Source: Desulfobacterales bacterium (GTDB taxonomy: Bacteria > Desulfobacterota > Desulfobacteria > Desulfobacterales > JAAELO01). From it: DNA of 52,295 nucleotides. Within the stretch, counting starts at the first letter, position 1. Every line of letters starts with the position of its first letter. Shown one piece after another: positions 27,951 through 38,087 of the stretch. The notes under the pieces were generated by a model, which saw nothing but the letters and a program-made list of their open reading frames with translations, did no database searches and was not told where the DNA came from. Both the position numbers and the translations under genes were made by a program. Where the stretch lies: NCBI GenBank assembly GCA_024226555.1, contig JAAELO010000700.1:1-52295 (forward strand). Reading direction: 5' to 3'.

Positions 27951-28028
27951 TCTTATCTCCTTTATTTCATATTCTTAAGCTAACAAATCATAGCTTTTTA
28001 ATTTTTGATAAATATAGCTTGCGCACAA

Positions 28029-28056
28029 AGTATATTTGAAAAAACATTAAAGTCAA
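28029..28056 (-). promoter_or_regulatory. Sigma70-like promoter of the flavoprotein gene
   Basis: On the minus strand TTGACT (28051-28056), a 16-base spacer and TATACT (28029-28034), about 80 bases before the flavoprotein start codon. Confidence 0.6.
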
Positions 28057-28184
28057 GAAAATAACAGCTCTAACTCTTTATATTATATATAGATATTTAA
28101 CAATAACTACTAAAACTTCAGTAAAATTTTCTTTTCTACTGCAAAAAATCTGGAAATTAATAACTGGCTGCAATATAGTCATTC

Positions 28185-28318
28185 AGGGAAGCTTCTAATA
28201 ATTAGAATTTTGATTGAAATACAAGGCTGAGAAAAAAATAACGAATCGTTTTTTGCAACAGTTCTTTTTTTTGAAAACGCAGTATTTCGTTTAAAAGGCA
28301 ATTATTAGAGATTCCCTT
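28185..28318 (-). mobile_element. MITE-like family 1 element, copy 4 (reverse orientation)
   Basis: This element of about 134 bp lies in the 27951-28357 gap. The left end AGGGAAGCTTCTAATAATTAG and right end AATTATTAGAGATTCCCTT are inverted repeats. The core reads in the opposite sense to the other copies: the reverse complement carries AACTGTTGCAAAAAACGA then TCGTTATTTTTT. Apart from this element and the promoter at 28029-28056, that gap holds nothing else recognisable. Confidence 0.75.
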
Positions 28319-28357
28319 GAATAATATTTTCCCAATAAACCAACCAAGAGGAAAAAG

Positions 28358-28885
28358 ATGCCCGTATACAAACTCGAAAAAATGGTCCCGGAAATTGAAT
28401 CTTCTGTTTTTATTGCAGAAACAGCTCAGGTCATTGGAGATGTTAAGATAGGAAAAAAATCTTCGGTATGGTTTGGAAGTGTATTAAGGGGTGATATTGA
28501 GAAAATCACTGTTGGTGAGGGAACAAATATTCAGGATCTTTCTGTTTGCCATTCAGACCCGGGAATTCCTTGCATTATTGGTAATAATGTTACTGTTGGT
28601 CACAGATGTATTATCCATGGTTGCACAATTTCCGATAACTGTTTAATAGGTATGGGTGCAATTATTATGAATGGTGCAAAAATTGGCAAAGGCAGTATAA
28701 TAGCTGCTGGAAGTGTGGTACTTGAAAATCAGGAAATACCACCTTATTCACTGGTAACAGGTATTCCTGGAAAAATAAAGAAGACATTTGATAATAAGGA
28801 TGAGATGGAGGGTGTTATAAAAATTCCTGCTGATGTGTATCAGACTCGCTCTGTTAAATATATGGATTGTCTTGAAAAGATATAG
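28358..28885 (+). CDS. Gamma carbonic anhydrase family protein
   Basis: A 175-residue left-handed beta-helix protein. The hexapeptide repeats run from IGDVKIGKKSSVWFGSVLRG to KGSIIAAGSVVLEN. Putative zinc histidines are in the LSVCHSDPG turn and the VGHRCIIHGC turn, with the R and D of VLRGDIEKITVG, as in gamma-class carbonic anhydrases such as Cam and YrdA. Activity is likely but some family members are inactive. AGAGGAAAAAG upstream is the ribosome binding site. The downstream aminopeptidase follows by 12 bases, so they form an operon. Confidence 0.88.
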   Translation: MPVYKLEKMVPEIESSVFIAETAQVIGDVKIGKKSSVWFGSVLRGDIEKITVGEGTNIQDLSVCHSDPGIPCIIGNNVTVGHRCIIHGCTISDNCLIGMGAIIMNGAKIGKGSIIAAGSVVLENQEIPPYSLVTGIPGKIKKTFDNKDEMEGVIKIPADVYQTRSVKYMDCLEKI

Positions 28886-28897
28886 GAGAACGTTTAA

Positions 28898-30184
28898 ATG
28901 ACAGAAAATAAATTTAATAAGCAGTTGATCTCGTTTTTATCGAAGTCCGTTTCACCCTACCACTGCATTACAGAATCAAAGAAAATACTAAAAAAAGCAG
29001 GGTTCAAAGAACTAAAAGAGAAAGACAAATGGACACTTAAAGATGGAGAATCTTATTATGTGACTAAAAATAGTTCATCTCTAATAGCTTTTGTTTATAT
29101 AAAAGGTATGGAAAATAAAGGTTATAGAATAACAGGAGCACATACAGATAGCCCGTGTTTAAAGCTAAAACCGGTTCAGGATATGATTAAAGATTCATAT
29201 GTTCAGCTTGCAACTGAGGTTTATGGAGGACCCGTTCTAAGTACATGGTTTGACAGAGATCTTAGTATCGCTGGAAAAATATGTTACACAACAAACAAAG
29301 ATGAAATAAAAACTACTCTGATAGACTTTAAAGAACCTGTTGCTATAATTCCCAATCTTGCTATCCATCTTTCCCGAAGTGAAAAAAACAAAGAGGTTGG
29401 TAAACAAAAGGAGCTTCCTCCGGTACTTTTTCAATCCTCTGGTAAGGAGGATTTTAATAAGCTTTTAAAAAATGAGATTTCAAAGTCCGGTATTAAAAAT
29501 ATTAAAAAAATAATGGATCACGAACTTTTTCTGTATGATACACAAAAACCATCCATCAGTGGTTTAAAGAAAGAATTTATAACCGGTGGAAAACTGGATA
29601 ATCTTCTGAGCTGCTTTGCCGGGCTTCAAGCTATTTGTAATGGGAATAAAAAAGCAAGTTCCATATTGGTTTTAAATGATCATGAGGAGGTGGGCAACAC
29701 TTCAAATGTTGGAGCACAGGGTCCTTTTTTATTATCTGTACTTGAAAGAATTTCTAAAACCAGAGAGGATCTTTGGAGATCATTTGATAATTCAATGATC
29801 ATATCTTCTGATAATGCCCATGGAGTTCACCCAAATTATTCAGAAAAATTTGATCCATCACATAAACCCCTTTTAAACAGTGGACCAGTTATTAAGTATA
29901 ATGCAAATCAAAGATATGCTTCAAACTGTGAAACAACTTCCATCTTTAAAATGGCCTGTGACAAAGTAAAAGTTCCATATCAATCCTTTGTGATGAGAAG
30001 TGATATGCCCTGTGGAACCACAATAGGCCCCACTGCCTCTGCAAAAACCGGAATTAAAGCTATAGATATTGGTGTCCCTACATTTGGAATGCACTCAATA
30101 AGGGAAACAGCAGGGATAAAAGACTGTTACCTCATGTATAAAGCTATTCTTTCATTCAATAATATTGAAGTGCTCCCAATTTAG
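28898..30184 (+). CDS. M18 family aminopeptidase
   Basis: A 428-residue metallo-aminopeptidase of the aspartyl aminopeptidase (ApeB/DNPEP) family that removes N-terminal acidic or hydrophobic residues in the cytoplasm. Metal ligands and neighbours are in GAHTDSPCLKLKP, GGKLDNLLSCFAGL, NDHEEVGNTS, SSDNAHGVHPNYSEK and PTFGMHSIRETAG. The length is typical. Together with the carbonic anhydrase gene it forms a short operon that ends before family 1 copy 5. Confidence 0.92.
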   Translation: MTENKFNKQLISFLSKSVSPYHCITESKKILKKAGFKELKEKDKWTLKDGESYYVTKNSSSLIAFVYIKGMENKGYRITGAHTDSPCLKLKPVQDMIKDSYVQLATEVYGGPVLSTWFDRDLSIAGKICYTTNKDEIKTTLIDFKEPVAIIPNLAIHLSRSEKNKEVGKQKELPPVLFQSSGKEDFNKLLKNEISKSGIKNIKKIMDHELFLYDTQKPSISGLKKEFITGGKLDNLLSCFAGLQAICNGNKKASSILVLNDHEEVGNTSNVGAQGPFLLSVLERISKTREDLWRSFDNSMIISSDNAHGVHPNYSEKFDPSHKPLLNSGPVIKYNANQRYASNCETTSIFKMACDKVKVPYQSFVMRSDMPCGTTIGPTASAKTGIKAIDIGVPTFGMHSIRETAGIKDCYLMYKAILSFNNIEVLPI

Positions 30185-30204
30185 TCAATAAATTGAAATT
30201 TTGT

Positions 30205-30357
30205 AAGGGAATCTCTAAAAAGGCCTTTTGTCTTAATTACTGCGTGTTTTCTAAAATAAAGAACTGTTGCAAAAGCGGTTTGTTATTTTTATCCCATGCA
30301 GATATTTTACAAAGATAGAAAGCTTTTATAAAAGTTCTAATTATTAGAAACACCCTT
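30205..30357 (+). mobile_element. MITE-like family 1 element, copy 5
   Basis: A 153-bp element between the aminopeptidase gene and the dsr operon promoter. The left end AAGGGAATCTCTAAAAAGGCC and right end CTAATTATTAGAAACACCCTT are inverted repeats. The core AAAGAACTGTTGCAAAAGCGG, with TTTGTTATTTTT after it, matches the family. It ends 31 bases before the -35 box of the dsr operon promoter. Confidence 0.75.
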
Positions 30358-30387
30358 GAAACAAATGATCTATTCGAAAATCATATA

Positions 30388-30416
30388 TTGACATGAATTT
30401 GTGAAATTATTATATA
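30388..30416 (+). promoter_or_regulatory. Sigma70-like promoter of the RsbRD-dsrMKJOP operon
   Basis: TTGACA (30388-30393), a 17-base spacer and TATATA (30411-30416). A start about 50 bases before the RsbRD-N gene is expected. Confidence 0.65.
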
Positions 30417-30472
30417 GGTCAATTGGAATTATTGAATAAATAACAAATATTTTTTTATGGAGCTTGAGTTAA

Positions 30473-31039
30473 ATGGGCTTAATTACCCTTATAGAAGAGA
30501 AGCGCTCTAAAATTGTAAAAGAATGGTTTAAGTTAACCATTAAGACCTATCCAAAAGAGAAATCTGATTTCTTTAAAAAAAAAAAAGATTCAATGGCAAA
30601 TCCTGTAGGTAACACCTTGTCAAAATCCCTTGAGGACATACTTAAGGGGCTTACAGACGATGTCGAAAACAATGAGATGGCAAAAATACTTGATCCCTCT
30701 GTTAGATTAAGAGCTGTTCAGGAATTTGCACCATCTTCTGCAGTATCATACATTTTTTTTCTGAAGAACGTCATTCGGGATATTCTGAAAAAAGATTTAA
30801 CAAAAGAGATCGAAAAAGAGCTTCTTATTTTTGAATCAAAAATAGATAGAGTCTCTTTGATTGCTTTTGATATATACATGGGCTGCCGGGAACAGATTTT
30901 TACTTATAAAGCTAACCATGTTAAGGAAAGAACGTTAAAGTTACTGGAAAAAGCGGATTTACTATGTGAGGTTCCAGAAGTTGGAGCTGAAATCATTCCA
31001 CATAATGTTTATTTAAATGGGGGCTTTGACGATAAATAA
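30473..31039 (+). CDS. RsbRD N-terminal domain protein linked to dsrMKJOP
   Basis: A 188-residue soluble protein, all-alpha and charged, with the globin-like RsbRD N-terminal sensor fold: LITLIEEKRSKIVKEWFKL, then PVGNTLSKSLEDILKGL, AVQEFAPSSAVSYIFFLK, and IDRVSLIAFDIYMGCREQI. No catalytic residues are evident. Genes like this sit upstream of dsrMKJOP in many sulfate reducers, suggesting a sensory or regulatory role there, but the function is not known. GGAG upstream is the likely ribosome binding site. A run of 12 A's (30575-30586) encodes four lysines in FFKKKKDS and could allow transcriptional slippage. Confidence 0.82.
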   Translation: MGLITLIEEKRSKIVKEWFKLTIKTYPKEKSDFFKKKKDSMANPVGNTLSKSLEDILKGLTDDVENNEMAKILDPSVRLRAVQEFAPSSAVSYIFFLKNVIRDILKKDLTKEIEKELLIFESKIDRVSLIAFDIYMGCREQIFTYKANHVKERTLKLLEKADLLCEVPEVGAEIIPHNVYLNGGFDDK

Positions 31040-31173
31040 CATCGGGGTTAAATCATCATTTAAACTGAGATTCGTTTGCGAAGGGAAACTATTCCTGAAA
31101 ACAATCCTTTTTATATAATGATTTCCAGATGATATTAATCGAAAAAAAGTTCCAAACAGTGAGGTAAAGGTAA

Positions 31174-32196
31174 ATGAATTTAAATTTATTATTTTCCCTT
31201 GCAGCTATTTTAGTACTGGGATGCGTTGGTTATTTTGTACCAAACGCAGGACTTCAAATGTTTTTTGGAGTTATTCTTCCCTACATAGCTGTATTAACGT
31301 TTTTATGTGGGGTAATATGGCGAGTTATGAAATGGGCTAAGTCTCCTGTTCCATTTCGAATTCCGACTACATGTGGACAACAGCAGTCATTACCCTGGAT
31401 AAAGCAAAACAAGATTGATAACCCATCAACAACAACTGGAGTTATCATTCGAATGTTTTTTGAGATTTTTCTTTTCAGATCTCTATTCCGAAACACTAAA
31501 GCTGAAATTAAAGATGGTGATAAAATATCCTACGAATGGGAAATCTTCCTTTGGGTAGGAGCTCTTGCTTTTCATTACTCTTTCTTAACAGTTTTGGTTC
31601 GTCACTTAAGGTTCTTTTTTGAAGACACTCTTTTGAAAGAAAAACTTTTTTTCGTGGGGATCATAGAAACACTTGATGGTTTTTTCCAGATTGGCCTTCC
31701 AATAGTGCTTATATCTGGATTTGTTCTTCTTGCAGCAGTTCTTTTTCTGTTATCAAGAAGGGTTCTAAACCCACAAGTTAAGTACATCTCCCTTGCAGCT
31801 GATTATTTTCCACTTCTTTTAATAGCAGGAATCGCAGCTACAGGTCTTTGGATGAGATACATCGAAAGAGTTGATGTAACGGCTATTAAGCAGATCACCC
31901 TGGGTATAGTTTCTTTTAACTGGACAAGCATTGACGTTATGAAGTCTGTAAGTGGAACTTTCTATCTACACCTTTTCTTCATTTGTACACTGCTTATTTA
32001 CTTTCCATTCAGTAAACTTATGCATGCAGCAGGTGTTTTCCTAAGCCCAACAAGAAACCTTGCAAATAACAGCCGTATGGTAAGACATATCAACCCATGG
32101 AATCCTGAGGTTAAGGTACACTCATACGAATCTTATGAGAATGACTTTAGAGAAAAAATGATAGAAGCTGGGCTTCCAGTAGATAAGGAGTCATAA
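31174..32196 (+). CDS. dsrM: DsrM, cytochrome b subunit of the DsrMKJOP complex
   Basis: A 340-residue membrane subunit of the NarI-like cytochrome b type that oxidises menaquinol and passes electrons to DsrK. Membrane helices include LLFSLAAILVLGCVGYFV, FFGVILPYIAVLTFLCGVIW, IFLWVGALAFHYSF and LHLFFICTLLIYFPF. Conserved histidines in LAFHYSF, LVRHLRFF and FYLHLFF are likely heme ligands. The soluble C-terminal tail ends near VDKES. Its TAA stop overlaps the dsrK ATG by one base (TAATG). Confidence 0.93.
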   Translation: MNLNLLFSLAAILVLGCVGYFVPNAGLQMFFGVILPYIAVLTFLCGVIWRVMKWAKSPVPFRIPTTCGQQQSLPWIKQNKIDNPSTTTGVIIRMFFEIFLFRSLFRNTKAEIKDGDKISYEWEIFLWVGALAFHYSFLTVLVRHLRFFFEDTLLKEKLFFVGIIETLDGFFQIGLPIVLISGFVLLAAVLFLLSRRVLNPQVKYISLAADYFPLLLIAGIAATGLWMRYIERVDVTAIKQITLGIVSFNWTSIDVMKSVSGTFYLHLFFICTLLIYFPFSKLMHAAGVFLSPTRNLANNSRMVRHINPWNPEVKVHSYESYENDFREKMIEAGLPVDKES

Positions 32197-33812
32197 TGGT
32201 AGACGTCGTAAAACCAGAAGAAATGATAAAGATAGATCCAACTCCACCCAGTACTAACTGGATGGATGTTCCTCCGGATTTTTCTCCTGGAAAATTTCCC
32301 TATCCTTCACAGGCAAAATCCCTTGAAGCGGTGGGTTTTCCAAATGCCAGAGAGTGGTCTCCGGCTGATGAAGATTGGAAGCTTCCAGAAAACTGGCAAC
32401 AGATAATTCACGAAGGTTTTAAGGAGCGTCTTGATAAATACCGTTCTCTTAAAGTGTTCATGGATAGTTGTGTTAGATGTGGAGCTTGTGCAGATAAGTG
32501 TCACTTTTTTATAGGTACTGGTGATCCAAAAAACATGCCTGTATTAAGAGCTGAGCTTCTAAGATCTATATACAGAAACGATTTTACAACTATTGGAAAA
32601 ATGCTTGGTAAATTTGCTGGTGCAAGAAAACTAACACCTGCAGTTATTAAGGAATGGTTCTCATACTTCTACCAGTGCACAGAATGCAGAAGATGTTCTG
32701 TTTTCTGCCCATATGGAATAGATACTGCTGAAATTACCATGATGGCAAGAGAGCTGCTTCACCTTTTAGGTTTAAGTATCCACTGGATCATGGACCCTGT
32801 TTCCAACTGTAACAGAACAGGTAACCACCTGGGTATTCAGCCTCAAAACTTCAAGGAAATAATTGAATTTTTCTGTGAAGATATTGAAGAGATAACAGGG
32901 GTCACACTAAATCCTTCCTTTAATAGAAAGGGTGCTGAGGTTCTGTTTATAACTCCTTCGGGAGATGCTTTTGCTGATCCGGGTACATACTCATTTATGG
33001 GCTACCTGATGCTTTTTGAACATATTGGACTTGATTATACATTGAGTACTTATGCTTCAGAGGGTGGTAACTTTGGTCTTTTTACATCATCTGAGATGAT
33101 GAAAAGATTGAATGCAAAGATGTACAGAGAAGCTGAAAGACTTGGTGTTAAGTGGATTTTAGGTGGTGAGTGTGGTCACATGTGGCGTGTTATTAACCAA
33201 TACATGGGAACAATGAACGGACCAGCTAATTTTCTTGAAGCTCCTGTTTCTCCAATAACAGGAACAAAGTTTGAAAATGCCAGAGATACCAAAATGGTTC
33301 ACATAGCAGAATTTACTGCTGACCTTATAAAAAACAACAAACTTAATCTTGATCCAAGCAGAAATGATCATTTAAAAGTAACTTACCATGATTCATGTAA
33401 CCCTGCCCGTGGTATGGGTATGCTTGATGAACCAAGGTTTGTTCTTGAAAATGTTTGTAACAATTTCCACGATATGCCTGAAAGCACAATCCGTGAAAAT
33501 ACATTCTGTTGTGGTAGTGGTTCCGGTCTTAATACTGAAGAGATTATGGACTTAAGATTAAGGGGCGGACTTCCAAGAGCAAACGCTGTTAAATATGTTC
33601 ATGAAAAGCATGGTGTTAATATGCTTTCATGTGTTTGCGCAATCGATCGAGCTGTTCTTCCTCCATTAATGGATTACTGGGTACCAGGTGTTGATGTTTG
33701 CGGACTTCACGAGCTTGTGGGTAATGCACTTGTTATGGAAGGTGAGATTGAAAGAGAAATGGATTTAAGAATGGAAGACTTACCAGGAAAGGAGGGTGAT
33801 TCAGATGAATGA
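32196..33812 (+). CDS. dsrK: DsrK, HdrD-like iron-sulfur subunit
   Basis: A 538-residue cytoplasm-facing subunit. Two 4Fe-4S motifs, CVRCGACADKC and CTECRRCSVFC, are followed by two cysteine-rich CCG-type domains (GGECGHM, YHDSCNPARGMG and NTFCCGSGSGLN) resembling the heterodisulfide reductase catalytic centre that carries a special FeS cluster. It is proposed to reduce the DsrC trisulfide made by DsrAB during sulfite reduction. It is coupled to dsrM and overlaps dsrJ by 8 bases. dsrAB and dsrC are not in the window. Confidence 0.94.
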   Translation: MVDVVKPEEMIKIDPTPPSTNWMDVPPDFSPGKFPYPSQAKSLEAVGFPNAREWSPADEDWKLPENWQQIIHEGFKERLDKYRSLKVFMDSCVRCGACADKCHFFIGTGDPKNMPVLRAELLRSIYRNDFTTIGKMLGKFAGARKLTPAVIKEWFSYFYQCTECRRCSVFCPYGIDTAEITMMARELLHLLGLSIHWIMDPVSNCNRTGNHLGIQPQNFKEIIEFFCEDIEEITGVTLNPSFNRKGAEVLFITPSGDAFADPGTYSFMGYLMLFEHIGLDYTLSTYASEGGNFGLFTSSEMMKRLNAKMYREAERLGVKWILGGECGHMWRVINQYMGTMNGPANFLEAPVSPITGTKFENARDTKMVHIAEFTADLIKNNKLNLDPSRNDHLKVTYHDSCNPARGMGMLDEPRFVLENVCNNFHDMPESTIRENTFCCGSGSGLNTEEIMDLRLRGGLPRANAVKYVHEKHGVNMLSCVCAIDRAVLPPLMDYWVPGVDVCGLHELVGNALVMEGEIEREMDLRMEDLPGKEGDSDE

Positions 33813-34194
33813 TAAAATTAAAATCATCGCCGGTCTGATTATTTTTGTGGCTATTTGCCTCTCTCCTTTTTTCATGGGATTAGGATCAGATTCAAATAAG
33901 GGACCAGATCCTGTAATTTCTGAGACTGCTAAAAAGAAGGGCAAGTGCATTCTTGAAAAAACAGAAATGGCTAAACAGCACATGGTTATTCTTGACCAGT
34001 GGAGAAATTCTGTAGTCAGAGATGCGCAAAGAGTTTATACAACAAAAGATGGAAAACGTTTTGATATGAGTCTTTCCAACACATGTTTGGATTGTCACGA
34101 TAATAAGAAAGAGTTCTGTGACAGATGTCATGACTATGCTTCTGTAACTCCTTACTGCTGGGATTGTCACATAAATCCAAAGGAGGTTAAATAA
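33805..34194 (+). CDS. dsrJ: DsrJ, triheme cytochrome c
   Basis: A 129-residue periplasmic triheme cytochrome. The ATG at 33805 is preferred over a GTG at 33796 because GGAGGG lies 8 bases upstream; it gives an 8-base overlap with dsrK. A signal anchor (IIAGLIIFVAICLSPFFMG) is followed by three heme-binding motifs, CLDCH, CDRCH and CWDCH. A non-heme-motif cysteine (about C48, GKCILE) fits the unusual His/Cys heme ligation known for DsrJ. Its last base is the first base of the dsrO ATG. Confidence 0.93.
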   Translation: MNDKIKIIAGLIIFVAICLSPFFMGLGSDSNKGPDPVISETAKKKGKCILEKTEMAKQHMVILDQWRNSVVRDAQRVYTTKDGKRFDMSLSNTCLDCHDNKKEFCDRCHDYASVTPYCWDCHINPKEVK

Positions 34195-34997
34195 TGAAAA
34201 ATAACAGAAGAGATTTTCTAAAAATTGCTGGTGTTGCAGCCATTGGTGCTGCAGTAAAGCCTGCAACAAGTGCTTATGCAATAGGGGAGCAGTTTGTTCC
34301 TGAAGGGCAAGCAGAAAATAAATCCAGTGTAAAGAAAGCTACTAAGTGGGGTGTCGTAATAGATACCAACAAGCTTACAAAAGAGCTTATGCACAAAATA
34401 AGCAAAGCATGCCATCTGGAGCATAATGTTCCAGATGAAAAAAATATTGAAAATGAAGATCATCGTAACCCAAATCATGAAATTAAGTGGATATGGGGTG
34501 AAGAGTTCAAGCATGCCTTTACTGATAAAACAGATAGGTACCTTGCAGATAAATTTGAACATATAGAGATTCCAGTGCTCTGTAATCACTGCGTTAACCC
34601 ATCATGTGTTAAAGCATGCCCTACAAAGGCAACCTTTAGCAGAGAAGATGGAATCGTTTTGATGGACTTTCACAGATGTATCGGATGTCGGTTCTGTATG
34701 GCAGCATGTCCTTTTGGATCAAGAAGTTTTAACTTTAAAGATCCAAGACCAGGTATAAAAAAGCACAACAAAAAATTCCCTACAAGAATGAAGGGTGTTG
34801 TTGAAAAGTGTAATTTATGTGCTGAAAGACTAGCTGTTGGTAAAAACCCTGTCTGTATGGAAGTTTCTGAAGGTGCAATCACAATAGGTGACCTTGAGAA
34901 TGAAACCTCAGATTTTAGAAAACTTCTGAAGGATAACTACACAATTAGACGTAAACAGAGTCTCGGAACCGAGCCTTCAGTTTATTATATTGTATAA
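34194..34997 (+). CDS. dsrO: DsrO, periplasmic iron-sulfur subunit
   Basis: A 267-residue Tat-exported subunit. The twin-arginine signal is NRRDFLKIAGVAAIGA. Ferredoxin-like 4Fe-4S motifs are in CNHCVNPSCVKACPT, CIGCRFCMAACPFG and CNLCAERL, with a further cysteine group in NPVCMEV. This family (HybA/NrfC-like) pairs with the NrfD-like DsrP to form the periplasmic module. It follows dsrJ with a one-base overlap; dsrP follows by 12 bases. Confidence 0.94.
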   Translation: MKNNRRDFLKIAGVAAIGAAVKPATSAYAIGEQFVPEGQAENKSSVKKATKWGVVIDTNKLTKELMHKISKACHLEHNVPDEKNIENEDHRNPNHEIKWIWGEEFKHAFTDKTDRYLADKFEHIEIPVLCNHCVNPSCVKACPTKATFSREDGIVLMDFHRCIGCRFCMAACPFGSRSFNFKDPRPGIKKHNKKFPTRMKGVVEKCNLCAERLAVGKNPVCMEVSEGAITIGDLENETSDFRKLLKDNYTIRRKQSLGTEPSVYYIV

Positions 34998-35009
34998 GGA
35001 GAAGTGATT

Positions 35010-36164
35010 ATGCTTGAAAAGGCTCTTAAAGGAAGCAAAAATTACTGGCTATTGTTAGTGGCGCTCCTTGCAATTATTGGTATTGGTTTCGCCACATATA
35101 TGGACCAATTCACATTCGGCCTTGGTATTACGGGTATGAGTCGTGATGTGTCCTGGGGTTTTTATATTGCTCAGTTTACTTTCCTTGTTGGTGTTGCCGC
35201 AGGGGGTGTTATGCTTGTTTTACCATACTACCTTCATGATTTTAAAAAGTTTGGCAGAATCACAATTTTAGGTGAGTTTTTAGCTGTAGCGGCTTGCTCC
35301 ATGTGTATGCTTTTTATTGTAGCGGATATGGGTGTTCCAAATAGGGTTGGAAACGTTTTTTTAAACGCAACTCCTAACTCAGTTCTTTTATGGGATGCAA
35401 CTGTTCTTAACGTATACCTTATCCTTAATATTGTAATAGGGTGGAAGCTTCTTGAGGCTGAAAGAAACAACGTAAAACCAGCTGGCTGGTTAAAACCACT
35501 AATTTACCTATCAATACCATTTGCATTTGGTATTCATACAGTAACAGCTTTTTTATATGCAGGTCTGCCTGGAAGAGGATTCTGGTTAACAGCTGTTTTA
35601 GCGCCAAGGTTCCTGGCTTCAGCATTTGCGGCAGGACCATCGTTTCTTATATTATTATGCTTCATAGTAAGAAAGTTTACTAAGTTTGATCCGGGCATAG
35701 ATGCTATGAGAGCATTAATGAGAATCATAACTTATGCACTTATTGCTAATGTGTTCTTTTTCTTATGTGAAATATTCACTGTGTTTTACAGTGGAATTCC
35801 TAGTCACATGGATCATATTAAATATCTTTTCGTTGGGTATCATGGGCACGCAGCTCTTGTACCATGGATGTGGACATCAATGTTCCTCATGTTTAGTGCA
35901 ATTGGTCTTCTGCTTTTTCCAAAAATCAGAAACAACGAAAAAGCTATGCCATTTCTATGTATAATGGTATTTATAGGAACCTGGATAGATAAAGGGCTCG
36001 GTATGATGTCTGGTGGATTTGTTCCTAGTCCTATGCATAAGTACACAGAGTTTATACCAACTTTAAAAGAGATAATTATTTCAGTTGGAATCTATGGTGT
36101 TGGTTTTCTAATACTTGCAGTATTATATAAAATAGCAATATCCGTAAAAGTTGATGCGGAATAA
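35010..36164 (+). CDS. dsrP: DsrP, NrfD-like integral membrane subunit
   Basis: A 384-residue quinol-interacting membrane protein with about ten helices, among them WLLLVALLAIIGIGFA, IAQFTFLVGVAAGGVMLV, LAVAACSMCMLFIVADM and VGIYGVGFLILAVLY. It is of the NrfD/PsrC family and would link the DsrJO module to the menaquinone pool. The ATG at 35010 is chosen, with AAGGAG 8 bases upstream. It is last in the operon and followed by a strong terminator. Confidence 0.94.
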   Translation: MLEKALKGSKNYWLLLVALLAIIGIGFATYMDQFTFGLGITGMSRDVSWGFYIAQFTFLVGVAAGGVMLVLPYYLHDFKKFGRITILGEFLAVAACSMCMLFIVADMGVPNRVGNVFLNATPNSVLLWDATVLNVYLILNIVIGWKLLEAERNNVKPAGWLKPLIYLSIPFAFGIHTVTAFLYAGLPGRGFWLTAVLAPRFLASAFAAGPSFLILLCFIVRKFTKFDPGIDAMRALMRIITYALIANVFFFLCEIFTVFYSGIPSHMDHIKYLFVGYHGHAALVPWMWTSMFLMFSAIGLLLFPKIRNNEKAMPFLCIMVFIGTWIDKGLGMMSGGFVPSPMHKYTEFIPTLKEIIISVGIYGVGFLILAVLYKIAISVKVDAE

Positions 36165-36206
36165 ATATTTATTTATTAAAAAATAGCTATTTTATTTGAA
36201 AAATAA

Positions 36207-36250
36207 GAAAGGACTTACTTTATAAAGGTAAGTCCTTTTCTTTTTTTTAA
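36207..36250 (+). terminator. Rho-independent terminator of the dsr operon
   Basis: An AAAGGACTTAC / GTAAGTCCTTT hairpin followed by a run of T residues. The rest of the 36165-36479 gap holds the rplU promoter and otherwise AT-rich sequence. Confidence 0.92.
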
Positions 36251-36397
36251 ACTCTAAATATAATATTTTATCAAACATGATACACAACATATTGTTTAAG
36301 ATATAAAAAACTAAAATTTTGCTTTTGACAAAAAGTATTTGTTACGTTATTAATCGAGTTTATGGATTTAAAAAAGTTTATAAAACCAATTATTTAC

Positions 36398-36425
36398 TTG
36401 ACATCTGGATAGATAAGTCTATAAT
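36398..36425 (+). promoter_or_regulatory. Consensus sigma70 promoter of the rplU operon
   Basis: A perfect TTGACA (36398-36403), a 16-base spacer and a perfect TATAAT (36420-36425). The leader to rplU is about 48 bases. Confidence 0.85.
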
Positions 36426-36479
36426 TAGGAGTTTTTTATTTTGGAGTTTCTTGATTTATATTGAAAGGGAATAAATACT

Positions 36480-36791
36480 ATGTATGCTGTTGTAAAAACA
36501 GGCGGAAAGCAATATAAAGTTCAGGAAGGCGAGATTTTACGTATTGAAAAAATCGACGGAGAGGTTGGTTCTCCTGTTAAATTTGAAAATGTTCTCATGT
36601 ATTCAAATGAGGGAAATGTTTCAATCGGTCAGCCTGAATTGGACAATGTTGCTGTAAGCGGACAAATTGTTGAGCAGGGTAAAGGTAAGAAGATAATCGT
36701 TTTTAAGTATAAGCGAAGAAAAAGATATAGAAAGAAGCAAGGGCACAGACAGCAATTTACAGCTGTAAAAATCGATGCCATTAGTGCTTAA
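36480..36791 (+). CDS. rplU: Ribosomal protein bL21
   Basis: A 103-residue large-subunit ribosomal protein: MYAVVKTGGKQYKVQEGE, a GEVGSPVKFENVLM middle and the C-terminal FKYKRRKRYRKKQGHRQQFT. The order rplU-rpmA-obgE is near universal in bacteria. It is the first gene of an operon that reaches gpmI. Confidence 0.97.
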   Translation: MYAVVKTGGKQYKVQEGEILRIEKIDGEVGSPVKFENVLMYSNEGNVSIGQPELDNVAVSGQIVEQGKGKKIIVFKYKRRKRYRKKQGHRQQFTAVKIDAISA

Positions 36792-36825
36792 TCTTTGTAT
36801 AATACTATCTTAGGAGTTAAAAAAA

Positions 36826-37080
36826 ATGGCACACAAAAAAGCTGGTGGTAGTACCAGGAATGGCCGTGACAGTAACGGTCAAAGACGTGGTGTTAAGCGT
36901 TATAGCGGACAAGAAGTTAAAGCTGGTAACATTATCGTAAGGCAGGTTGGAACAAGCATTCATCCTGGTAACAACGTTGGTTGTGGAAAAGATTATACTC
37001 TTTTTGCAAAAATTGATGGTGTTGTTACATTCGAAAGATTAGGTCGCGACCGTAAAAAAGTTAGTGTTTATGCCGCGTGA
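36826..37080 (+). CDS. rpmA: Ribosomal protein bL27
   Basis: An 84-residue protein that begins [18 protein letters not shown], the intact bL27 N-terminus that reaches into the peptidyl transferase centre. It continues [14 protein letters not shown] and [13 protein letters not shown]. There is no N-terminal extension for Prp-type processing. AGGAG lies upstream. Its TGA overlaps the GTG start of obgE by three bases. Confidence 0.97.
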
Positions 37081-38087
37081 AGTTTGTAGATGAAGCCTCA
37101 ATTACCGTAGAGTCTGGAGATGGCGGAGAAGGTTGTGTCAGCTTCAGGCGTGAAAAGTTTATAGAGCGTGGTGGCCCTGATGGTGGGGATGGTGGTAAAG
37201 GTGGCAGTGTTACTTTTATTTCATCTTCACAGAAAAGAACCCTTTACAAATTCCGACATCAGAATATTGTTAAGGCAAGAAGGGGTGAAGCCGGTAAAGG
37301 TCAGCAAAAAAACGGTAAAGACGGAGATAGCATTACTTTGGAAGTTCCTGTCGGGACTATCATAAGTAATGCTGAAACCGGTGAAACTCTATTCGATTTT
37401 GAAAATCCCAATCAGGAATTTATAGTTGCAAGAGGTGGTATTGGTGGGAGAGGAAACAGAAGGTTTGTTTCTGCCACAAATAGAGCGCCGAGGTATGCTC
37501 AACCAGGTCTTCCTGGTGAGATGTTCAGTCTTAAGTTAGAGCTTAAATCCATGGCTGATATTGGTCTTTTGGGATTTCCAAATGCCGGAAAATCTACCCT
37601 TATAAGTACAATATCTTCTGCAAGACCTAAAATTGGAAGCTATCCTTTTACTACACTGACACCAAATATTGGTATGGTAACTCCTGATTATGGAGAACCA
37701 TATGCCGTAGCAGATATTCCAGGAATTATTGAAGGTGCTTCAAAAGGTGTAGGTCTCGGAATTCAGTTTCTAAAGCATGTTGAAAGAACAAAGTATCTTC
37801 TTCACCTTGTTGATACATCTGAAATTGATCCTGATGACCCTCTTTTAAAGCTAAACCAGATCAATAATGAGCTTAAAGAGTTTAGTACCAAATTATCTGA
37901 AAAAACCCAGATTATTGCTTTGACTAAACTTGATTTGACAGATAGTGAAGAGAAAGCAGATCTGTTTATCAATCTTTTAAAAGATGATATAAAGGTTTTC
38001 AAAATCTCAGCTGCAACTGGTAGAGGAATTGTTGATTTAAAAAATTATCTTTCTAATCTTGTGAACGAAGTTAATGATGAAAAATGA
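37077..38087 (+). CDS. obgE: GTPase Obg
   Basis: A 336-residue ribosome-assembly GTPase. It starts at a GTG (37077) four bases into the end of rpmA. The glycine-rich Obg fold ([12 protein letters not shown]) is followed by a G domain with [15 protein letters not shown] and the TKLD motif. No C-terminal OCT domain is present, as is common. Its stop overlaps the proB ATG (ATGA). Confidence 0.95.

Follow-up and report, generated by a model that had tools for sequence, protein, structure and literature searches.

The last electron-transfer step of sulfate respiration is carried out by the membrane complex DsrMKJOP. Excerpts of published reports describe a single dsrTMKJOP operon as the usual arrangement of its genes in sulfate reducers (PMC13047784) and state that dsrT adjoins dsrM in several lineages and is co-distributed with DsrMKJOP in bacterial reducers (PMC10504309). 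For four Nitrospirae genomes and others, a further excerpt gives dsrT as the gene between dsrC and dsrM (PMC5812927). DsrT is needed for sulfur-compound metabolism in green sulfur bacteria, according to passages that give this finding as a secondary citation (PMC8359478, naming Holkenbrink et al. 2011; PMC6018796).

The function of DsrT is called unknown in a passage which adds that the protein was not found in Pseudomonadota (PMC11406059). On the basis of homology, DsrT "may regulate" DsrMKJOP in the wording of one excerpt (PMC10504309), a suggestion that is repeated in a second (PMC13047784), and a third states flatly that DsrT regulates DsrMKJOP expression (PMC12948486). The RsbRD_N domain is described by Pfam as the N-terminal domain of the RsbT co-antagonist. 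Nothing on DsrT appears in excerpts of a D. vulgaris interaction paper (PMC3125180), and neither a description of DsrT as a globin nor a paper naming RsbRD together with dsrM was found in the open-licence literature.

We analyzed a stretch of 52,295 nucleotides from a Desulfobacterales bacterium (contig JAAELO010000700.1 of assembly GCA_024226555.1), termed the window hereafter. The gene at 30473-31039 of the window is almost certainly dsrT, and its identity is ordinary: It is the orthologue of an already named gene in the usual place. An earlier note on this DNA had described the product as an RsbRD-N domain protein that lacks a STAS output domain, and had called the gene unassigned. The first statement agrees with Pfam, which gives RsbRD_N alone. 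The second does not hold, since the name dsrT was already in the literature along with the requirement reported for green sulfur bacteria. The features of the locus are as follows.

30388..30416, plus strand: predicted promoter of the dsrTMKJOP unit, sigma-70-type TTGACA-17-TATATA, from sequence and conservation in relatives
30473..31039, plus strand: dsrT, ATG start, 188 amino acids, RsbRD_N without STAS
31174..32196, plus strand: dsrM, Nitrate_red_gam / NarI-like membrane subunit (NF038037, 509.7 bits; PF02665)
32196..33812, plus strand: dsrK, 4Fe-4S protein (NF045796, 744.3 bits)
33796..34194, plus strand: dsrJ, cytochrome c subunit (NF038038, 168.6 bits)
34194..34997, plus strand: dsrO, 4Fe-4S protein with TAT signal (NF045797, 291.6 bits; PF10518)
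35004..36164, plus strand: dsrP, NrfD-like membrane protein (NF045798, 471 bits; PF03916)
36207..36239, plus strand: intrinsic-terminator-like hairpin after dsrP, 15 pairs and a T-run

The five genes after dsrT exceed the cut-offs of the NCBIfam equivalogs DsrM, DsrK, DsrJ, DsrO, and DsrP, and dsrJ overlaps dsrK by 17 nucleotides, provided that the GTG start of dsrJ is correct. The window gene shares its place directly before dsrM with the known dsrT genes of sulfate reducers and of green sulfur bacteria, and nothing essential differs from the published protein. However, dsrT is not preceded by dsrC in the window, and the gap between dsrT and dsrM is long (134 nucleotides, compared with a median of 29.5 nucleotides over 156 loci). 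On the contigs of the four Nitrospirae genomes (L117, L129, L147, and L102), a DsrC-like open reading frame precedes the homologue and dsrM follows it. The window protein is 38%–40% identical in the alignment to these four proteins, which were matched by position rather than by published locus tags, and is 42% identical by BLASTP to the L117 protein over 168 amino acids.

The transcription unit headed by dsrT

The predicted promoter matches the sigma-70 consensus at 10 of 12 bases, with TTGACA beginning at 30388, a spacer of 17 nucleotides, and TATATA ending at 30416. A consensus scan did not list this site because the scan demands T at the last position of the -10 element. On the window alone the promoter is marginal, since an exact TTGACA with at least 10 of 12 matches arises in 32 of 1000 sequences when the 288-nucleotide intergenic region is dinucleotide-shuffled, and any site with at least 10 of 12 arises in 198 of 1000. 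An origin by chance, possible if the window alone is considered, is excluded by comparison with relatives.

The window and 19 relatives were compared over 300 nucleotides upstream of dsrT. Of these 20 loci, 18 have sites with at least 10 of 12 matches, each with an exact TTGACA. Such sites are absent from this region in L247 and L264, of which L247 is the closest relative (56% identical). Conservation was also assessed in 163 distinct loci, with the pattern defined as an exact TTGACA, 16 to 18 nucleotides, and at least four of the six bases of TATAAT within 250 nucleotides upstream of dsrT. Of the 16 order relatives, 14 carry this pattern (shuffles predict 0.28), as do 28 of 57 phylum-sample loci (0.56 expected) and 13 of 76 genome-contig loci taken from the best 80 of 489 relatives (0.73 expected). 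None of 14 Clostridia-type loci carries it (0.20 expected). In total, 55 of the 163 loci have the pattern, whereas each of five permuted hexamers gives 1 to 5. This conservation across relatives indicates that the site at 30388-30416 is not a chance occurrence.

For the 156 loci in which dsrM or dsrK follows dsrT, the pattern occurs within 250 nucleotides before dsrT in 51 and before the next gene in 2, and a second promoter ahead of dsrM was rejected on this basis. In a scan of positions 28000–38000, no terminator-like site on the plus strand was found between dsrT and dsrP, and the hairpin at 36207-36239 is the first such site downstream of dsrT. A conserved promoter before dsrT, together with the lack of a terminator until after dsrP, argues that dsrT heads the unit. 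Co-transcription of the genes from dsrT to dsrP is a well-supported prediction from the sequence.

Judged by eye, a recurrent string (aagttgtt or alike) commonly closes the promoter spacer ahead of the TATA, as is seen upstream of dsrT in L045, L058, L249, L255, L259–L261, and L265. The string is possibly an extended promoter element or a regulator site. Behind the dsrP terminator, a perfect 12/12 sigma-70 promoter (TTGACA-16-TATAAT) is present at 36398-36425 of the window, and the open reading frame downstream of it at 36480 was judged by eye to encode ribosomal protein L21.

Association of dsrT with dsrMKJOP

The phylum sample consists of 296 genomes of the phylum of the window, 141 of which carry dsrM over the cut-off. 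In at least 132 of these 141 genomes, dsrT is directly upstream of dsrM. Among the matches listed, which include 150 RsbRD_N rows, RsbRD_N is on the same strand and no more than 3 kb upstream of dsrM in 128 of the 141, and the distance from the end of the RsbRD_N domain to the start of the DsrM profile in these loci is 208–603 nucleotides. The other 13 genomes can be accounted for individually. Four of them (G274, G291, G058, and G021) carry a divergent DsrT immediately before dsrM. Contig ends account for G081 and G065, and G236 is a one-contig genome whose ends explain its case. DsrT is located elsewhere than before dsrM in three (G153, G193, and G253), and the DsrT profile gives no match in the last three (G027, G063, and G198).

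A Clostridia-type sample of 119 genomes represents the phylum of G296, which is taken to be a Clostridia bacterium from the title of its record; phylum names in general were deduced from such titles. All 15 genomes of this sample that carry dsrM over the cut-off have DsrT. The gene order is T-K-J-O-P-M in 11 of them (L209–L218 and L101, the last being G296), such that dsrM is last and dsrT is still at the head of the cluster. Three have the order T-M-K-J-O-P, and in G378 dsrM is on a separate contig. DsrT without dsrM over the cut-off is found in G413, where a short contig carries T-K-J-O-P, and G346 of the Clostridia-type sample gives a weak DsrT match of the RsbRD type, likewise without dsrM over the cut-off.

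Genome contigs were scanned with patterns containing Q83 and C138, and the best 80 of 489 relatives were kept. The gene after dsrT is dsrM or dsrK in 77 of these 80 loci, and in the other three (L091, L140, and L150) the contig ends there. A DsrC-like open reading frame is present no more than 600 nucleotides upstream of dsrT in 53 of the 75 loci from this set that have at least 500 nucleotides upstream.

In the sampled genomes, DsrT occurs almost only with dsrMKJOP. The earlier note had placed a consensus promoter at 30388-30416, had the gene lead a dsrMKJOP operon from that shared promoter, and raised the possibility of a protein dedicated to the complex. These proposals are borne out: A full dsrMKJOP set follows, the promoter is conserved before dsrT in order relatives even though it is weak by itself, and the phylogenetic profile against dsrMKJOP, which the earlier note had named as a check, is strongly positive in both the phylum sample and the Clostridia-type genomes.

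The three genomes with no DsrT match belong to one family, are 99%–100% complete, and contain a full MKJOP set (L226, L227, and L228). Weak PF14361 matches are present in them (1.0e-6 to 1.7e-4, among the matches listed), and these were not confirmed by the DsrT profile. The gene order in all three is DsrC, membrane protein, DsrK-like protein, and then M-K-J-O-P. In G213 (L233), the order is DsrC, membrane protein, DsrK-like protein, T, and then M-K-J-O-P. These layouts indicate that a second DsrC/DsrK-like module can occupy the usual place of DsrT.

Such genomes bear on the possibility that DsrT assists in the assembly or maturation of DsrMKJOP. It would then act transiently, in docking of DsrK on DsrM or in cluster or heme insertion, and would not be a sensor. 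An almost obligatory linkage and the leading position of dsrT in the cluster are compatible with this role, as are the best rate correlation being that with DsrM (see below) and the requirement in green sulfur bacteria stated in a passage of PMC8359478. However, the three near-complete genomes indicate that MKJOP can exist without DsrT, which argues against a general assembly factor. DsrT is also located away from MKJOP in G153, G193, and G253, and the RsbRD_N family is one of sensor proteins. We therefore consider an assembly factor possible but doubtful.

The existence of MKJOP without DsrT likewise lowers the expectation that DsrT is a stoichiometric sixth subunit on the cytoplasmic side of the complex. 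Cluster membership and co-occurrence are what a subunit would exhibit, and the 50-residue C-terminal helix of the model described below could dock. Against this, both the name and the description of the complex comprise five subunits, and clusters without DsrT exist. It is very unlikely that DsrT is a sixth subunit.

Two further arrangements were observed. In G193 and G253 (L079:4355-5733 and L080:4617-5988, respectively), the DsrT gene located away from MKJOP is directly followed by an NADPH-dependent FMN reductase-like gene. The FMN reductase-like Pfam match was obtained for L079 only, and a DsrK-like gene is present a few kb upstream in L079 and L080. G002, a Syntrophaceae MAG by record title, has two dsrT copies on two short contigs (L075/L082 and L084), one in the order T-K-DsrC and the other T-M at the contig end; a mixed bin is possible.

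The RsbRD_N domain and the stressosome link

The sole Pfam match of the 188-amino-acid window protein at E ≤ 0.001 is PF14361 (RsbRD_N) at residues 4–105, with an E value of 2.6e-18 and a score of 67.1 bits against a cut-off of 24.3. Pfam recognizes no STAS, kinase, or DNA-binding domain in the protein, and there is no NCBIfam match. The same Pfam library recognizes STAS in the relatives L073, L074, and L078. The window DsrT is the only RsbRD_N match in its own genome at E ≤ 0.001 (7.69 Mb in 904 contigs, 98% complete). Viral relatives were not found by tblastn among 19 pattern matches, and a sequence search for relatives with solved structures gave one match, which is at chance level (E 0.32).

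RsbS was sought with one query at E ≤ 1e-15, and a divergent partner could be missed by such a search. By this measure, RsbS is present in 7 of the 296 phylum-sample genomes. Three of these (G090, G158, and G294) are among the 141 genomes with dsrM, and the other 138 have no match. The genome of the window (98% complete, 904 contigs) also gave no match, and 6 of 6 control genomes were matched, one of which is the query's own. Weak STAS-like matches in the order relatives G118 (3.4e-4) and G162 (1.2e-6) were not counted as RsbS.

All five STAS-bearing loci that were read (G158, G015, G294, G194, and G234) have RsbS adjoining the RsbRD_N gene. Among the matches listed, RsbRD_N is also found in open frames of 470–546 amino acids in seven genomes that have no RsbS match (G082, G005, G042, G074, G160, G278, and G207), with E values of about 1e-9 to 5e-10. 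These longer frames indicate that RsbRD_N proteins of other make-up exist in the phylum.

PF14361 is common to DsrT and to RsbRD, in which RsbRD_N is combined with STAS. At the residue level, D125 is present in six of six RsbRD-type rows, K98 in five of six, and E140 in all five rows of this type that have a residue there. Unlike RsbRD, DsrT lacks STAS, has no RsbS match in the genome, and carries N43-P44, Q83, and in most cases C138. DsrT resembles a small sensor protein akin to a stress-signaling system whose partner seems to be mostly absent from these bacteria. Two candidate assignments were rejected. DsrT is not taken to be an RsbR/RsbRD stressosome protein, since RsbRD_N is present without a C-terminal STAS domain and without an RsbS match in the genome. 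Stressosome signaling was likewise discarded as its main role because, with the one query used, an RsbS match is absent from 138 of the 141 dsrM genomes.

These findings also bear on the proposal that DsrT regulates transcription of dsrMKJOP. The proposal appears in print, in excerpts of three papers (PMC10504309, PMC13047784, PMC12948486), and both the Pfam description of RsbRD_N and the position of dsrT as the first gene of the cluster are in keeping with it. However, Pfam detects no STAS, DNA-binding, or kinase domain, the single RsbS query finds a match in 3 of 141 dsrM genomes, 7 of 296 overall, and none in the genome of the window, and the dsrT promoter is a plain near-consensus site of the sigma-70 type. 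Since 138 of the 141 genomes give no match to this query, stressosome-type signaling is disfavored and, with it, the regulator idea that was based on homology. Given a protein with none of these domains and no RsbS match, the regulation claimed in the passage from PMC12948486 is left with no visible route. Transcriptional regulation by DsrT is quite improbable.

Predicted fold, conserved residues, and a proposed role

An AF2 model of DsrT was built with 80 sequences (the best 80 of 489 relatives). It has seven helices, with a mean pLDDT of 85.6 and a pTM of 0.75. The model is all-helical to residue 160 and its last, C-terminal helix spans the 50 residues 111–160, whereas residues 168–188 are of low confidence (pLDDT < 50). 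The first-ranked match by VIA-align is 3pmc (Z 12.5, rmsd 2.8 over 125 residues, 14% identity), which we take to be a stand-alone non-heme globin sensor domain, judging by how Stranzl et al. 2011 is titled. The second is 2bnl, the RsbR N-domain (Z 12.3, rmsd 3.0 over 125 residues, 7% identity). Tied at Z 12.3 are the heme-globin domain of DosC (4zva) and a designed protein, with ranks 1–5 spanning Z 12.3–12.5, and globins and phycobiliproteins come next.

The N-domain of RsbR is a heme-free globin, and DsrT likely has the fold of a globin-like sensor domain without heme, as judged from the model. The likeness to 3pmc and 2bnl is one of predicted fold; identity to either is only 14% or 7%, and no sensor kinase is seen beside dsrT. 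For helical models, a VIA-align Z below ∼13 may mean merely a common arrangement, and Foldseek gives no match to the model at E ≤ 0.001 (best 0.079). For these reasons we grade the globin-like fold as likely only. It gains in likelihood from the kinship with RsbRD seen by Pfam. No column has histidine in more than 30% of rows in alignments A1 (45 rows) and A3 (80 rows, the best 80 of 489 relatives), and so heme binding via a conserved histidine is not a property of the DsrT family. The heme globin reading was rejected, since no conserved proximal histidine is seen in these rows.

Stand-alone non-heme globin domains have been proposed to compete with a sensor kinase for ligand. DsrT could be a ligand sink of this type, and 3pmc, to which its model aligns best, belongs to these proteins. 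However, there is no sensor kinase among the dsrMKJOP genes, and the tie of DsrT to dsrMKJOP is strict. There is little chance that DsrT serves as a ligand sink.

Residue conservation was counted in rows above 90 bits, namely, 57 from the phylum sample (including one STAS-bearing row, L003) and 16 of the Clostridia type; the counts for C138 come from rows that were not selected by the Q83/C138 patterns. N43 is kept in 56 of 57 and 16 of 16 DsrT rows, as is P44, and Q83 is kept in 54 of 57 and 15 of 16. C138 is kept in 48 of 57 and 12 of 16 rows and is not invariant. None of the six RsbRD-type rows below 90 bits has the N-P pair, Q83, or C138; two of these rows have gaps at 43–44 and one at 138. 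Alignment A3 overstates the Q83 and C138 columns because the scan patterns contained both residues. A mostly conserved Cys138 in a cytoplasmic protein of the DsrC-trisulfide pathway is no more than suggestive.

We favor a sensing accessory over an assembly factor, a transcriptional regulator, a subunit, or a ligand sink. DsrT would be a post-translational ligand- or thiol-sensing cytoplasmic accessory of DsrMKJOP that tunes electron flow, a tentative reading that may well be correct even if the chances are somewhat against it. As a dedicated cytoplasmic accessory acting after translation, DsrT would sense a small ligand or the thiol/sulfane-sulfur state via its globin-like core or the mostly conserved Cys138. 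It may dock on the DsrM/DsrK side of the complex and, once docked, could tune electron flow to DsrC-trisulfide. A more specific version, which is unlikely, holds that a STAS-less stressosome-type globin sensor was recruited as a post-translational gate that would read a hydrophobic ligand or the sulfane-sulfur/thiol state (Cys138) and set the activity of DsrMK toward DsrC-trisulfide.

The name and position of the gene were already known. Added here are the globin-like predicted fold, the lack of STAS and of a conserved histidine, the RsbS profile, and the occurrence of MKJOP without DsrT. DsrT is a very constant companion of DsrMKJOP, and the printed statement that it is a regulator rests on domain homology. 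By the single RsbS query, nearly all of these genomes seem to lack the stressosome route that this homology offers, so that the role of DsrT should be sought at the protein level. Genomes with MKJOP and without DsrT, as well as the DsrT-specific residues, provide direct handles for tests.

A possible partner is indicated by a mirror-tree analysis. With trimmed sequences from 74 loci (five loci were dropped for coverage < 0.8), the partial correlation of DsrT is 0.38 (sd 0.10) with DsrM, 0.23 with DsrP, 0.12 with DsrO, 0.12 with DsrJ, and -0.11 with DsrK. The corresponding values for untrimmed open reading frames from 79 loci are 0.50, 0.21, 0.34, -0.12, and -0.20. DsrM and DsrK are known to be in contact, and this pair scores only 0.16, so the pointer to DsrM is weak and DsrM as the partner of DsrT is a lead only. 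The DsrT rate also correlates best with that of DsrM in two subsets. One is made up of 58 genome-contig loci, from the best 80 of 489 relatives, that begin with T followed by M (0.58, sd 0.05); the other consists of the 11 loci in which dsrM is last (0.62, sd 0.25).
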